Assembly: GCA_012026975.1 (NCBI GenBank)
Contig: VEPG01000012.1
Span: forward strand, 31,949 to 95,948
Direction of reading: 5' to 3'
Source of the DNA: Desulfuromonas sp.
GTDB lineage: Bacteria > Desulfobacterota > Desulfuromonadia > Desulfuromonadales > BM103
Length of the DNA: 64,000 bases
Below, one piece after another: positions 3,914 through 58,412 of this stretch. Each line of letters starts with the position of its first letter. Position 1 is the stretch's first letter. Below the pieces are notes generated by a model. The model saw only the letters and a program-made list of their open reading frames with translations. It searched no databases and was not told the DNA's origin. The position numbers were made by a program, and so were the translations under genes.

Positions 3914-5014
3914 GTGACCGCCTATCTTCACGAAATTGCCATTGCCACGCCTGAACATCTCTACCGCCAGGAAGAAGTCAGTCTCTGGATGCAGGAGCTT
4001 GCGGGCGACGACCGCCAACGTCGACTGCTCAAGGCGCTCTATCGAGCCTCCGGGATCACCACCCGGCACACGGTAATACCGGAGTTCGGCCGCGGATTCT
4101 TCGGCCGCGATGCCCACGGCGCGCTGGTCGAGCCGGGGACCGGGGCACGCAATGCCATTTACGCCCGCGAGTCGCGCCGGCTCGGCCGGCAGGCCGGAGA
4201 GGCGCTGCTGGCCGCCCGACCGGACTTTCTCCCCGACACTATCACCCACGTGGTGACCGTCTCGTGCACTGGCTTTGTCAATCCCGGCCTCGACTACTTT
4301 CTGGTCCGCGATCTCGGCCTGCCGGCAGCCACCGAACGCTACCATCTCGGCTTTATGGGCTGCTACGCGGCCTTCCCGGCCCTGCGCATGGCTGCCCAGT
4401 TCTGCCGGGCCGATCCCAATGCCCGCGTGCTGGTACTCTGCCTGGAGCTTTGTTCGCTGCACATTCAGCTTGGCGCTCGCGAGGACCAGCTATTGGCCAA
4501 CGCTCTCTTTGCCGACGGCGCCGCCGCCGCGCTGGTCAGCTCCACGCCCCCGCCACCGGGACGGACGGCCTTGCGCCTGGATCATTTCACTTCCAACCTG
4601 GTCCCTGAAGGGGAAGCCGCGATGGCCTGGTCGATCGGCGACCACGGCTTCGACATCGCTTTGTCGAGCTATGTGCCGAGGATTCTCGGCGCCAACATCA
4701 ACCCCGTCGTCAGCGAACTGCTGGCGACCGGCGGGCACAGCCCCGACGACATCGCCATCTGGGCGGTCCATCCCGGCGGCAAGGCGATCCTCGACCAGCT
4801 CGAGCGCTCCCTGGGACTGCGCCCGGAGCAACTGGCCCCATCGCGGGGGGTTCTGCGGGACTTCGGCAACATGAGCAGCGCCACCATCCTCTTCGTCCTG
4901 CACGACCTGTTGATGGCGCCGACCGATCGGCCGCGCCACATCTTCAGCATGGCCTTCGGCCCGGGGCTGACCGTGGAACAGGCGCTGCTGACCCAACTGC
5001 CGGGGAAGGTATGA
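3914..5014 (+). CDS. Type III polyketide synthase
   Basis: A 366-aa chalcone-synthase-fold ketosynthase. The catalytic triad is visible: Cys150 in GFMGCYAAF, His286 in AVHPGGK and Asn319 in DFGNMSS. The SCTGFVNPGLDYF segment around 117-129 matches the conserved region before the active site. The GTG start at 3914 follows GGAGCACCC. Such enzymes extend an acyl-CoA starter with malonyl-CoA and cyclise it to an alkylpyrone, alkylresorcinol or similar ring. Its stop overlaps the start of an FAD hydroxylase, followed by a methyltransferase. That set matches the srsABC phenolic-lipid pathway of Streptomyces in gene content. Starter, chain length and ring type cannot be read from sequence. Confidence 0.9.
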   Translation: MTAYLHEIAIATPEHLYRQEEVSLWMQELAGDDRQRRLLKALYRASGITTRHTVIPEFGRGFFGRDAHGALVEPGTGARNAIYARESRRLGRQAGEALLAARPDFLPDTITHVVTVSCTGFVNPGLDYFLVRDLGLPAATERYHLGFMGCYAAFPALRMAAQFCRADPNARVLVLCLELCSLHIQLGAREDQLLANALFADGAAAALVSSTPPPPGRTALRLDHFTSNLVPEGEAAMAWSIGDHGFDIALSSYVPRILGANINPVVSELLATGGHSPDDIAIWAVHPGGKAILDQLERSLGLRPEQLAPSRGVLRDFGNMSSATILFVLHDLLMAPTDRPRHIFSMAFGPGLTVEQALLTQLPGKV

Positions 5015-19276: not shown

Positions 19277-20269
19277 CTACGGTCTTATCTCAACCATGGT
19301 GCCAACGGGTACAAACTTGTAAATTTCCTCTATTTCCTCGTCGGTTAAGGCAATGCACCCTTTCGTCCAGTCAACCTCCGCATGGGAATCCCCAACCCAA
19401 GAGAACCCATTTTTGATGCCGTGGATCATGATGTCTCCGCCCGGAGAAACACCCAGCTCTCTTGCCCGCTTCCTGTCGCTCTCGTTCGGATAGGAAATAT
19501 GCAGGGACAGGTGATACTGGCTCCCCTGGTTTTTCGCATCGATGAAGTAGATGCCTTCCGGGGTTTTGTTGTCGCCCTGTCTTTCCTTCGGCCCGATCGG
19601 GTTCCCCCCCAAGGCGATCCTGTAGGTTTTGAGCGCTTCGCCTTTTGAGAGCAGCGTCAGACGACGTTCCTTTTTTTCAATCAGGATTTTGTCTGTCGGC
19701 CGGCTCTGGATGGCAAAAGAGAAAACCTGTTGTTCAAGCTCTCCGGCCTTTTTTTGCAGGGTGACAATTTCATTTTTCAGGCCGGCAATTTCGCCCTCCT
19801 TGCCCTTAATCTCTTGCCGGAGGGTCTCGATGTGTGCTTGCTGTGTGCTGATCAACTGGTCCTTGGCGGAGACATTGTTGAGATAAAACAACATCATTTC
19901 ACTGTCCTGCCGGTACCGACTCCCCGGATAATCCTTGATGAGTTTTTGAAAACACTCCTGGGCTTTCCGGTAGTCTTTTTGCTCATTCCGCGGATGGGTA
20001 TAAATAATGCCCATCTCGAACAATGCCCGGTCTCCCGTCGCGGGATATGTTTCGATGATCTGCTCGTATTTCTGCAGTGAGGCCTCGTAGCTCCCCTGAC
20101 TAAAAAATACATTCGCCTCTTCGAAGTTTGATCTGGCCTGAAATCCCTGGCTGCATCCGCAGACGAGCATCACTGCTATTATGAGGCAGAGGCTTCTCCT
20201 GCCCAGACGCGCCAAAGCCCGACTCAAGCCGTTAGGCCCTAAGGCTTGCAAGATACCCGGATCCCTCAT
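19277..20269 (-). CDS. L,D-transpeptidase lipoprotein with repeat and coiled-coil region
   Basis: About 330 aa from ATG 20269 (AAGGGG just upstream; an in-frame GTG at 20275 is possible). Lipobox LVCGC places the lipidated Cys at 39. Residues 45-120 resemble TPR/YbgF-BamD-type repeats, 125-190 form a coiled coil, and the C-terminal YkuD catalytic domain has MIHG and the cysteine motif WTKGCIALTDEEI. Such enzymes act in the periplasm on peptidoglycan tetrapeptide stems, either making 3-3 crosslinks or attaching proteins. It lies downstream of an Lpp-like gene and a second L,D-transpeptidase, beyond a strong hairpin. The usual SxGC is here TKGC. Confidence 0.85.
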   Translation of the reverse strand: MRDPGILQALGPNGLSRALARLGRRSLCLIIAVMLVCGCSQGFQARSNFEEANVFFSQGSYEASLQKYEQIIETYPATGDRALFEMGIIYTHPRNEQKDYRKAQECFQKLIKDYPGSRYRQDSEMMLFYLNNVSAKDQLISTQQAHIETLRQEIKGKEGEIAGLKNEIVTLQKKAGELEQQVFSFAIQSRPTDKILIEKKERRLTLLSKGEALKTYRIALGGNPIGPKERQGDNKTPEGIYFIDAKNQGSQYHLSLHISYPNESDRKRARELGVSPGGDIMIHGIKNGFSWVGDSHAEVDWTKGCIALTDEEIEEIYKFVPVGTMVEIRP

Positions 20270-20370
20270 CGCCACCCCTTGGCAGAAGCGTCAGAAATAT
20301 TTCGTGCTAAGAGCCATCTGCCCCAACTTGACGAGGCAAGCCGTGAAACGCCCGGACCGCTGTGATGGCT

Positions 20371-20455: not shown

Positions 20456-20758
20456 TTATTTCCTCATCGATTTCTGGAAAGCTTCATCAGCCATTTTGGC
20501 CTTTTCCTCTGCGATCCGTTCTCTTTCCTCGGCCTTCTTTACCGCCTCGTCGGCGCGGGCCGCGGCTTGTTCCGCCCTTAACGTGGCGGCATCGGCGGCC
20601 GCCTTGGCGGCTTGCGCATCCTGCGCCGCCTGATCAGCTTTCGCGCCGATCAGTTTTTCCTGCGCCTGCACCTGCTCGAGTTCGGCGGTTGTTGCACAAC
20701 CCAGCAACGTAACCGCGAGAGCAAGCGTCATTACGGTCAGCAAAAGACTTTTCTTCAT
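20456..20758 (-). CDS. Lpp/OprI-like alanine-zipper outer-membrane lipoprotein
   Basis: 100 aa. Signal peptide with lipobox TLLGC (Cys21). The mature 80 residues are a continuous Ala-rich heptad helix (AKADQAAQDAQAAKAAADAA and similar), as in the trimeric alanine-zipper lipoproteins OprI and Lpp. The protein ends FQKSMRK; in E. coli Lpp the terminal Lys of YRK is joined to diaminopimelate in peptidoglycan, so this C-terminal Arg-Lys is suggestive. The ribosome-binding site AAAGGAGGTGA is a perfect match to the 16S tail, implying high expression. It lies 47 nt behind one L,D-transpeptidase gene and before another. Confidence 0.8.
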   Translation of the reverse strand: MKKSLLLTVMTLALAVTLLGCATTAELEQVQAQEKLIGAKADQAAQDAQAAKAAADAATLRAEQAAARADEAVKKAEERERIAEEKAKMADEAFQKSMRK

Positions 20759-20805: not shown

Positions 20806-22125
20806 CTATGTTTTTTTGACGGGTTCGATCAGGATACCGTCGATTTCCAGATCGATTTTCAAGCGTTTGGCGGCAGCGTCGGCTTCACTGCTATCATTGA
20901 AAGGGCCGGCGATGACCCGATAACGCTTGCTGCCCGGCAACACCCTTGCCGGGATCGGGGGGCCCTGGTGATTGATAATGGCGGCAATCCGCAGAGCCTC
21001 AATCTCGTCAGGCACATCGGCGGCCAGAACATACCACGCCTCCAGTTTCAGCTCCGGTATTTCCGGTTTGCCCAGCAATTTACCCGGATGCTCGACTTCC
21101 ATGGTTTCCGCTGTCGTCTGGCCACTTCCCGGACTCAGCTCGAGAATGGGGACCGGAATCCCCCGGGCCTCGGCCTGTACTTCCTTGATTTTTTTCCAGT
21201 CAAGCTTGCGACCCGATTTCTTTTCGATGCTTCTCAGCTTTGCATATGTCTGTTCCAGTTCAACGGCACCCGAGCCCTCCTGGGGCGCATGCGCTTCCAG
21301 GTACAGGACGCCGTTGCGCTGACCCACCAGATATGGCTGGCTGATAATGGCCACGGGGGTGTTAACCGGCGTGTCACCGAAGAGCAGCTTCACACTTTCC
21401 GGATAAAGCCGCAAACAGCCATTGGTCGCGTTGAGACCGATGCTGGCCGGCTTGTTGGTGCCGTGGATCAAATAGCTAGATTTACTTAGATAGAGCGCAT
21501 ATTCCCCGAGGGGATTTTGCGGTCCCGGCGGAACTTTCGCGGGCAGTGGATCGCCTTTTTTCCGGTGGTCCTCGGCAATCGAAGCAGGTACCGTCCAGGT
21601 CGGCCGGATGGCCTTGCGTTCCACATACATCCGCCCCGTGGGCGTGGGCCGCTCTTTGGTGCCGACACCGACCGGGTAGGTCGATACCGCCAGCGATTTG
21701 CCATCCTCTTTATATTGAAAGAGTCGCATGGTGGCCAGATTGACAACAATGCCTTCCCTGGGAGCGTCCGGCAGGATGAAGCTCAGGGGCAGCACAATCC
21801 GCCTGCCGGCCTCGGGCACCCACACATCCACCCCGGGATTGGCGGCACTGATGGCGTTGATCCCCAGGCTGAAGTGTCTCGCGACATCCGGCAGGGTATC
21901 CCCCTTTTCAAGCCTGACGGCTGCCAGCCGGCCAATGACGTCATCACCTTCCGCCACCGAAAACCGGTTGCGTTCGAGCTCCTTCTCCGGATGGACCGGG
22001 GCAGCCCATGGCTTTTCCTGAACACTTTTCAGCGCGGCACATCCATGGAGAAATGCGATGAATATGCAGAGGGCGATAAGACGAAGCCCCTTGGATGTAA
22101 GTGACAGGTCAACGATTCGGCACAT
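20806..22125 (-). CDS. L,D-transpeptidase lipoprotein with LysM and SPOR-like domains (ErfK/YbiS type)
   Basis: 439 aa. Lipobox FLHGC (Cys29). A LysM-like segment (about 60-115) with GDTLPDVARHFSLGINAI, then the YkuD catalytic domain with His221 in LIHGTNKPASIG and Cys237 in NATNGCLRLYPESV, a fully conserved active site. Residues about 365-435 form a SPOR-like domain (AWYVLAADVPDEIEALRI ... RYRVIAGPFNDSSEA), which binds denuded glycan. ErfK/YbiS-class enzymes anchor Braun lipoprotein or crosslink peptidoglycan. It is the first gene after a leader with two tandem GEMM riboswitches and is followed by an Lpp-like gene. Confidence 0.9.
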   Translation of the reverse strand: MCRIVDLSLTSKGLRLIALCIFIAFLHGCAALKSVQEKPWAAPVHPEKELERNRFSVAEGDDVIGRLAAVRLEKGDTLPDVARHFSLGINAISAANPGVDVWVPEAGRRIVLPLSFILPDAPREGIVVNLATMRLFQYKEDGKSLAVSTYPVGVGTKERPTPTGRMYVERKAIRPTWTVPASIAEDHRKKGDPLPAKVPPGPQNPLGEYALYLSKSSYLIHGTNKPASIGLNATNGCLRLYPESVKLLFGDTPVNTPVAIISQPYLVGQRNGVLYLEAHAPQEGSGAVELEQTYAKLRSIEKKSGRKLDWKKIKEVQAEARGIPVPILELSPGSGQTTAETMEVEHPGKLLGKPEIPELKLEAWYVLAADVPDEIEALRIAAIINHQGPPIPARVLPGSKRYRVIAGPFNDSSEADAAAKRLKIDLEIDGILIEPVKKT

Positions 22126-22223: not shown

Positions 22224-22338
22224 AAAAAAGCCGGAACACCAAATATCGTCCGTGATATTTCGGCATCCCGGCTGTCTGCTGGAGACCCTAGGCTTTCCGC
22301 CCCACCCTCGCGGATGGTTTAGTCTTATCGTGTACCAC
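22224..22338 (-). promoter_or_regulatory. GEMM-I riboswitch copy 2 (gene-proximal), predicted cGAMP type, with terminator
   Basis: On the minus strand: ACTAAACC, a CCATCC-GCGA-GGGTGG stem with GNRA loop, GGCGGAAAGCC and AGCCGGGATGCCGAA, the conserved core of GEMM-I (Rfam GEMM_cis). The base that corresponds to Vc2 G20 is A (position 22323), the GEMM-Ib feature linked to 3',3'-cGAMP recognition in Geobacter. The 3' part of the aptamer (CCGGGATGCC) also forms the left arm of a terminator (22230-22272) followed by six U. Ligand binding should therefore block termination (ON switch). It ends about 100 nt before the L,D-transpeptidase start. Confidence 0.85.
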
Positions 22339-22436
22339 TCTGTTGCCGGCTGCATCCCGGCAGAGTTCAACCGTGGATCGCCGGGTTGATCATTCAATAG
22401 GAAGCGCTCAACCAAATCCTTTCGTCTCTCGGGCAC

Positions 22437-22551
22437 AAAAAAACCGGAACGCCAAATATCGTCTGTGATATTTCGGCATCCCGGCTGTCTGCTGGAGACC
22501 CTAGGCTTTCCGCCCCACCCTCGCGGATGGTTTAGTCTTATCGTATACCAC
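22437..22551 (-). promoter_or_regulatory. GEMM-I riboswitch copy 1 (promoter-proximal), predicted cGAMP type, with terminator
   Basis: A near-identical copy of the riboswitch at 22224-22338, offset by 213 nt; across the aptamer core I count a single difference, at the outer end. It has the same GCGA tetraloop stem, GGCGGAAAGCC and A at the ligand-selecting position (22536). Its terminator (CCGG arms at 22444-22447 and 22481-22484) ends in seven U. The polymerase must pass both terminators before reaching the genes. Confidence 0.85.
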
Positions 22552-22576
22552 GGCCATTTCCGTGAACTGCGGTACA

Positions 22577-22606
22577 GGTATACAAAAGCCGTTATTTGCA
22601 AGTCAA
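22577..22606 (-). promoter_or_regulatory. Sigma-70 promoter of the riboswitch-controlled operon
   Basis: Minus strand TTGACT (22606-22601), 18-nt spacer, TATACC (22582-22577) preceded by TTG. It lies about 25 nt upstream of riboswitch copy 1, in an AT-rich stretch. Confidence 0.6.
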
Positions 22607-55521: not shown

Positions 55522-55740
55522 TTTTCATCAAGAGTGGCTGAGGGACAGGCCCTGCGACGCCACAGCAACCGATCCGCCATAGCCGTCAGGCAAAGGTGGG
55601 TGCCAGGTGCTAAATCCTGCCCGCAATAGCTCCTTAGGGGCGAAAGCGGGAAAGATGAGAATGGCGCTTTGCAGACGGCAGACCTTTACCTCCGTCCCCG
55701 AAGCCCCTTCTCATCCCCACCGAGAAGGGGCTTTTTCTCT
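55522..55740 (+). promoter_or_regulatory. SAM-I (S-box) riboswitch with terminator
   Basis: Core AAGAGTGGCTGAGGGACAGG, CAGCAACC and GGTGCCAGGTGCTAAATCC match the S-box consensus. P1 is TTTTCATC (55522) with GATGAGAA (55654-55661). The latter can instead pair with TTCTCATC (55708-55715), forming an antiterminator. The terminator AGCCCCTTCTC / GAGAAGGGGCT (55702-55732) with a U run follows. SAM should therefore stabilise P1 and shut off the gene. Confidence 0.93.
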
Positions 55741-58189: not shown

Positions 58190-58412
58190 TGCACGTCTTT
58201 ATCGAGAGTGGCGGAGGGACAGGCCCTGCGATGCCACAGCAACCGGTTCGCCGGAGCCCGTCAGGGCGAAGGTGGATGCCAGGTGCTAATTCCCGCCCGA
58301 CGAAGCCCTTGAGGGCGAAGTCGGGGGAGATGAGGACGGTGCCCGCGATACGTCGGCAATTCTCAACGTAACCGCGCGGCCCCTTCTCATCTTCGGGAAG
58401 GGGCCTTTGCTT
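58190..58412 (+). promoter_or_regulatory. SAM-I (S-box) riboswitch 2 with terminator
   Basis: Core ATCGAGAGTGGCGGAGGGAC, CAGCAACC and GGATGCCAGGTGCTAATTCC. P1 3' strand GGAGATGAGG (near 58335). Terminator GGCCCCTTC / GAAGGGGCC (58378-58405) with U-rich tail (TTTGCTTTTTC). Same off-switch layout as the riboswitch at 55522 and parts of the aptamer are nearly identical. Confidence 0.93.

Follow-up and report, generated by a model that had tools for sequence, protein, structure and literature searches.

The leader of an envelope operon in the window (the whole stretch of 64,000 nucleotides analysed here) contains two complete aptamer and expression-platform units, at 22437-22551 and 22224-22338. 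We read these units with considerable confidence as two complete GEMM-Ib riboswitches in series, acting as transcriptional ON switches for the operon. The elements of the leader are as follows.

22577-22606, minus strand: candidate sigma-70-like promoter, predicted from the sequence (-35 TTGACT at 22601-22606, 18-nt spacer, -10 TATACC at 22577-22582)
22467-22551, minus strand: upstream GEMM-I aptamer (RF01051 at 48.8 bits, and alignments), with A at 22536
22437-22486, minus strand: upstream intrinsic terminator (-26.1 kcal/mol, z -3.9), the left arm of which overlaps the aptamer 3' strand
22339-22436, minus strand: inter-riboswitch spacer of 98 nt, resembling the spacer of the cytochrome-type tandem described below
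22254-22338, minus strand: downstream GEMM-I aptamer (RF01051 at 48.5 bits, and alignments), with A at 22323
22224-22273, minus strand: downstream intrinsic terminator (-25.9 kcal/mol, z -4.0)

Two near-identical GEMM-I aptamers

A cmscan search of the 22224-22606 locus returned two matches to RF01051 (GEMM-I / c-di-GMP-I) and no more, one in the upstream copy (22472-22546, minus strand, 48.8 bits, E = 1.7e-6) and one in the downstream copy (22259-22333, minus strand, 48.5 bits, E = 2e-6). The earlier note on this DNA had described two near-identical GEMM-I aptamers in tandem, to be checked with the Infernal GEMM-I model, and both aptamers were indeed matched above the gathering score of 35 bits. 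The two 85-nt aptamers differ at only one of their 85 positions (T/C at the 7th position of A1), and the aptamer and terminator units are 92.5% identical over their full length. A strict regular expression failed to find the majority of copies and was replaced by Infernal.

The hallmarks of GEMM-I, namely P2 with a GNRA tetraloop, the AAA/CC core and the 3' UGCC segment, were recognised by alignment with the model and with the 31 other leaders. Both copies carry A at model position 11 of the Infernal alignment, next to the GC/AAA core on its 5' side, where the model has a conserved G. Counting back from the GC/AAA core, we take 22536 and 22323 to be the equivalents of G20 of the Vc2 aptamer, and the alignment thus confirmed the A that had been noted at this position in both copies. 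The A is present in all 33 aligned leaders of this type (the two of the window and 31 others).

Expression platforms and promoter

Each terminator is a hairpin of 19 bp that carries a single bulged G and runs into 6-7 U, and none of 200 shuffled sequences folded as stably. A consensus promoter and terminator scan of the leader called neither the candidate promoter nor the terminators; the latter were most likely missed because of the bulge in the stem. The TTGACT-18-TATA spacing of the candidate promoter is repeated before the cytochrome-type tandem of the same genome.

The left arm of the terminator, AGCCGGGAUGCCGAAAUAUC, includes the aptamer 3' strand, and 9 nucleotides have a pairing partner in the aptamer model as well as in the terminator model. 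In fold predictions, using a free-energy model that excludes ligand and tertiary contacts, the terminator pairs had a mean probability of 0.92 in the unbound ensemble. Across 33 related leaders, standard pairs occupy 97.2% of the terminator pair cells, and when the terminator partners were slid by 1-3 columns as a control, this proportion fell to 30-48%. Two mid-stem pairs are changed on both sides (UA to AU and CG to UA), as is a single cell of a third pair, although the evidence from this covariation is modest because the 33 leaders are closely alike. The overlap, the folds and the conservation of pairs agree with the proposal that the aptamer 3' strand is also the left arm of a U-tailed terminator.

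The regulated operon

The leader is followed by three genes.

20806-22125, minus strand: first gene, a lipoprotein-like L,D-transpeptidase with YkuD and SPOR domains, 439 aa (PF03734, 7.2e-22; PF05036, 5.6e-10)
20456-20758, minus strand: second gene, an alanine-zipper outer-membrane lipoprotein (Lpp/OprI-like) with a C-terminal Lys, 100 aa (PF11839, 1.5e-11)
19277-20275, minus strand: third gene, a TPR and YkuD L,D-transpeptidase, 332 aa (PF03734, 1.1e-20)

The operon has 44 homologous loci in named genomes, the majority of which belong to Geobacteraceae, other former Deltaproteobacteria and Nitrospirae; a 45th match, to a distant Devosia protein with 27% identity, was set aside. The order of the three genes is kept in most of the named loci whose contig reaches far enough. 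In Geobacter sulfurreducens, the genes under GEMM-Ib control, including the 'lipoprotein transpeptidases GSU0181-0183', were down 16-fold in a gacA deletion, and the RNA of a tandem leader was gone by the second riboswitch (PMC6456294). The gene content and the regulator class described for the GSU0181-0183 leader match those of the window, and, as judged from the published description, GSU0181-0183 is most likely the equivalent of the operon in the window.

Ligand and cGAMP synthase

From the sequence evidence, we predict that cGAMP is probably the ligand of the pair. The genome of the window encodes a GacA orthologue (contig C72) of 463 aa with a receiver domain and a GGDEF domain, the best PDB match of which is the structure of GacA from G. 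metallireducens (6d9m, 5.7e-57; next match, 2.4e-41). Its GHLVGS motif has Ser where ordinary GGDEF enzymes have Asp, the signature of Hypr GGDEF enzymes (PMC6456294). A clear GacA homologue is present in 53 of 58 relatives. The same genome also encodes a second Ser-type GGDEF protein, a GAF-GGDEF protein of 347 aa with GHLVGS (G000:C65:8771-9241; L061:946-1989) and again with 6d9m as its best PDB match, so that it may have two cGAMP-capable cyclases.

We found 20 GEMM-I aptamers in the genome, 9 with A and 11 with G at the specificity position as read from the oriented sequences, and cGAMP and c-di-GMP signalling seem to coexist. With 11 G20-type aptamers and numerous ordinary GGDEF enzymes, this organism very probably makes c-di-GMP, which would favour a pair that responds chiefly to c-di-GMP or to the two dinucleotides alike. 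Moreover, A at position 20 alone does not establish cGAMP selectivity, since a natural A variant from Desulfobacca acetoxidans gained affinity for cGAMP and may have lost only little of its affinity for c-di-GMP, keeping much of it (PMC9481103). However, the A is invariant in the 33 leaders even though G20 aptamers coexist with it in the genome, a GacA orthologue is encoded, and expression of the published Geobacter operon falls without gacA; we thus consider a pair devoted mainly or equally to c-di-GMP unlikely.

Several other riboswitches were observed. Two G-type (c-di-GMP-type) GEMM-I riboswitches in tandem, separated by 107 bases, lie in front of a multihaem cytochrome-like gene (G000:C22:8570-8751; L099:2571-2752). 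Two aptamers on contig C65 of the same genome (L103:3230-3304 and 4085-4162) scored best with the variant family c-di-GMP-I-GGC (RF03167), and they precede signalling genes for a response regulator and a sensor with CxxCH motifs. The window itself contains two SAM-I riboswitches 2.7 kb apart, at 55522-55661 and 58196-58336 on the plus strand (77.9 and 76.5 bits).

Switching logic

In each unit without ligand, the aptamer 3' strand would pair with the downstream arm to form the intrinsic terminator. When 3',3'-cGAMP, presumably from the GacA-type Hypr GGDEF enzyme of the genome, is bound, the 3' strand would be kept in the aptamer and RNA polymerase would read on. In the pilM riboswitch of G. 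metallireducens, the aptamer and the terminator cannot form together, and termination is prevented by cGAMP, making the riboswitch an ON switch (PMC9262584). The ON direction predicted for both units, as the earlier note had it, is therefore well supported by the anatomy and by the likeness to pilM. With the Geobacter GEMM-Ib riboswitches (for example, those of pgcA/GSU1761 and pilM), the window shares the aptamer family, the A at the specificity position, the terminator formed from the aptamer 3' strand and, judging from this anatomy, the ON logic, together with a GacA synthase in the genome; it differs in that its organism belongs to another genus of the same broad group, and is represented by a draft genome, and in that the ligand of its riboswitches is predicted.

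Because both terminators must be passed, readthrough would be approximately the product of two probabilities. The pair had been described as giving a steeper, AND-like response. The requirement for both units stands as a description, whereas the input is one and the steepening is only modest: by calculation, two independent and identical switches would go from 10% to 90% over a 40-fold range (apparent Hill coefficient 1.19), compared with 81-fold for a single switch, and their midpoint would be 2.4-fold higher. The chief effect of the tandem would instead be a very low leak. As the leak is squared, illustrative values of 5% leak and 80% maximum would increase the induction from 16-fold to 256-fold. 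In fact, measurements of a triple tandem from Bacillus thuringiensis showed a lower background and a larger fold change as units were added (PMC4759541). Tandem c-di-GMP-I riboswitches have been catalogued as 347 doublets and 12 triplets, with Bc3-5 of B. thuringiensis as an example; like the pair in the window, they are complete riboswitches in series for the same ligand class with a pseudo-cooperative logic, whereas the pair in the window consists of two near-identical copies and is predicted to bind cGAMP, not c-di-GMP.

Distribution of the tandem

Several members of Geobacteraceae, like the window, have a tandem in front of the homologous operon. Tandems were found before the same operon at ten other loci (L113, L115, L117, L119, L122, L123, L124, L125, L126 and L134), and a single copy was found in nine cases (L128, L139, L140, L143, L155, L156, G016, G022 and G054). 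GEMM-I was not found before the homologous operon in roughly half of the loci, and no riboswitch was found within 900 bases upstream of this operon in the sister genome G002. The ten other genomes with a tandem at the same operon indicate that the tandem arrangement is old, and a recent first origin was ruled out. Decayed GEMM-I copies were observed before the same operon at L114:862-910 and L116:3367-3442; in both, the 5' half of the aptamer is gone, and with it the A that contacts the ligand, and the L114 copy also lacks the terminator arm.

The single copies in some relatives and the decayed copies in L114 and L116 would fit a leader with a single working riboswitch and a passive leftover of a recent duplication. 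However, both copies in the window are intact in the aptamer, the terminator stem and the U tract, and tandems persist before this operon in the ten other genomes. We therefore regard a single working switch as very improbable, and prefer two functional riboswitches in series.

History of the two copies

A second A-type tandem is present in the same genome (G000:C22:55620-55900; L098:3621-3901), before a gene for a CxxCH-containing surface-type protein. This cytochrome-type tandem is conserved in G002 of the same genus (L198), and in G046 (L210) it lies before a gene for a similar protein.

We reconstructed a tree of the riboswitch units, which are short (only about 120 nt). The upstream and the downstream copies of four Geobacteraceae genomes formed separate clades (support 99/97 and 96/93), as expected from an old tandem. 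The similarly spaced tandems before the same operon in Geobacteraceae would also suit a reading of the window copies as old positional orthologues of these upstream and downstream copies, with their similarity maintained by selection and neither conversion nor recent copying involved. However, the window copies were sisters in the tree (97/86) and grouped with the first riboswitch of the cytochrome-type tandem (C22:55620) and that of another species of the genus (98/88). Placing the upstream window copy with the Geobacter upstream copies, or the downstream copy with the downstream copies, was rejected (AU; P = 0.016 and P = 0.0066, respectively). The tree and the AU tests rule out simple positional orthology, and we consider old orthologues kept similar by selection very improbable.

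The sequences around the aptamers were also compared. The spacer between the window copies resembles the cytochrome-type spacer (z 3.5, with 0 of 300 shuffles scoring as high), and the flank upstream of the window tandem resembles that of the cytochrome-type locus (z about 3, with 1 of 300 shuffles as high); no resemblance was found between this flank and the flanks of the other transpeptidase leaders. Whereas the operon matches GSU0181-0183 as described, the nearest leader to the riboswitches of the window is the cytochrome-type one found in their own genus. The simplest explanation is that, within the genus, this operon received a copy of a cytochrome-type riboswitch or had its own riboswitches converted by one. 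The near identity of the two copies had been attributed to recent duplication or gene conversion; the sister grouping of the copies favours such lineage-specific duplication or conversion, whereas the tandem arrangement itself is not recent, as shown by the ten other genomes.

It is quite possible, at slightly less than even odds, that the leader was rebuilt in the genus by copying the promoter-proximal cGAMP riboswitch, perhaps with the promoter and the spacer, from the cytochrome-type operon, and was then homogenised. Because the tree in which all transpeptidase leaders, including the window copies, were held together also stood (P = 0.10), we offer cassette copying as a hypothesis.

Implications

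Tandem GEMM-I pairs and the GEMM-Ib control of such an operon have been published (PMC6456294, PMC9481103). What is new here is the extension to another lineage, together with suggestive evidence for copying or conversion of leaders within a genome. The control of an operon for a lipoprotein and L,D-transpeptidases, which would serve peptidoglycan anchoring, by a predicted cGAMP riboswitch now reaches beyond Geobacter, and would tie cGAMP signalling to the anchoring of the outer membrane to the cell wall alongside its known link with surface cytochromes. The history of the copies offers a concrete case of how a riboswitch regulon may grow and how the likeness of tandem copies may be kept up. 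If cassette copying is true, tandem GEMM-Ib leaders would be mobile regulatory cassettes, subject to concerted evolution, through which operons enter the cGAMP regulon.
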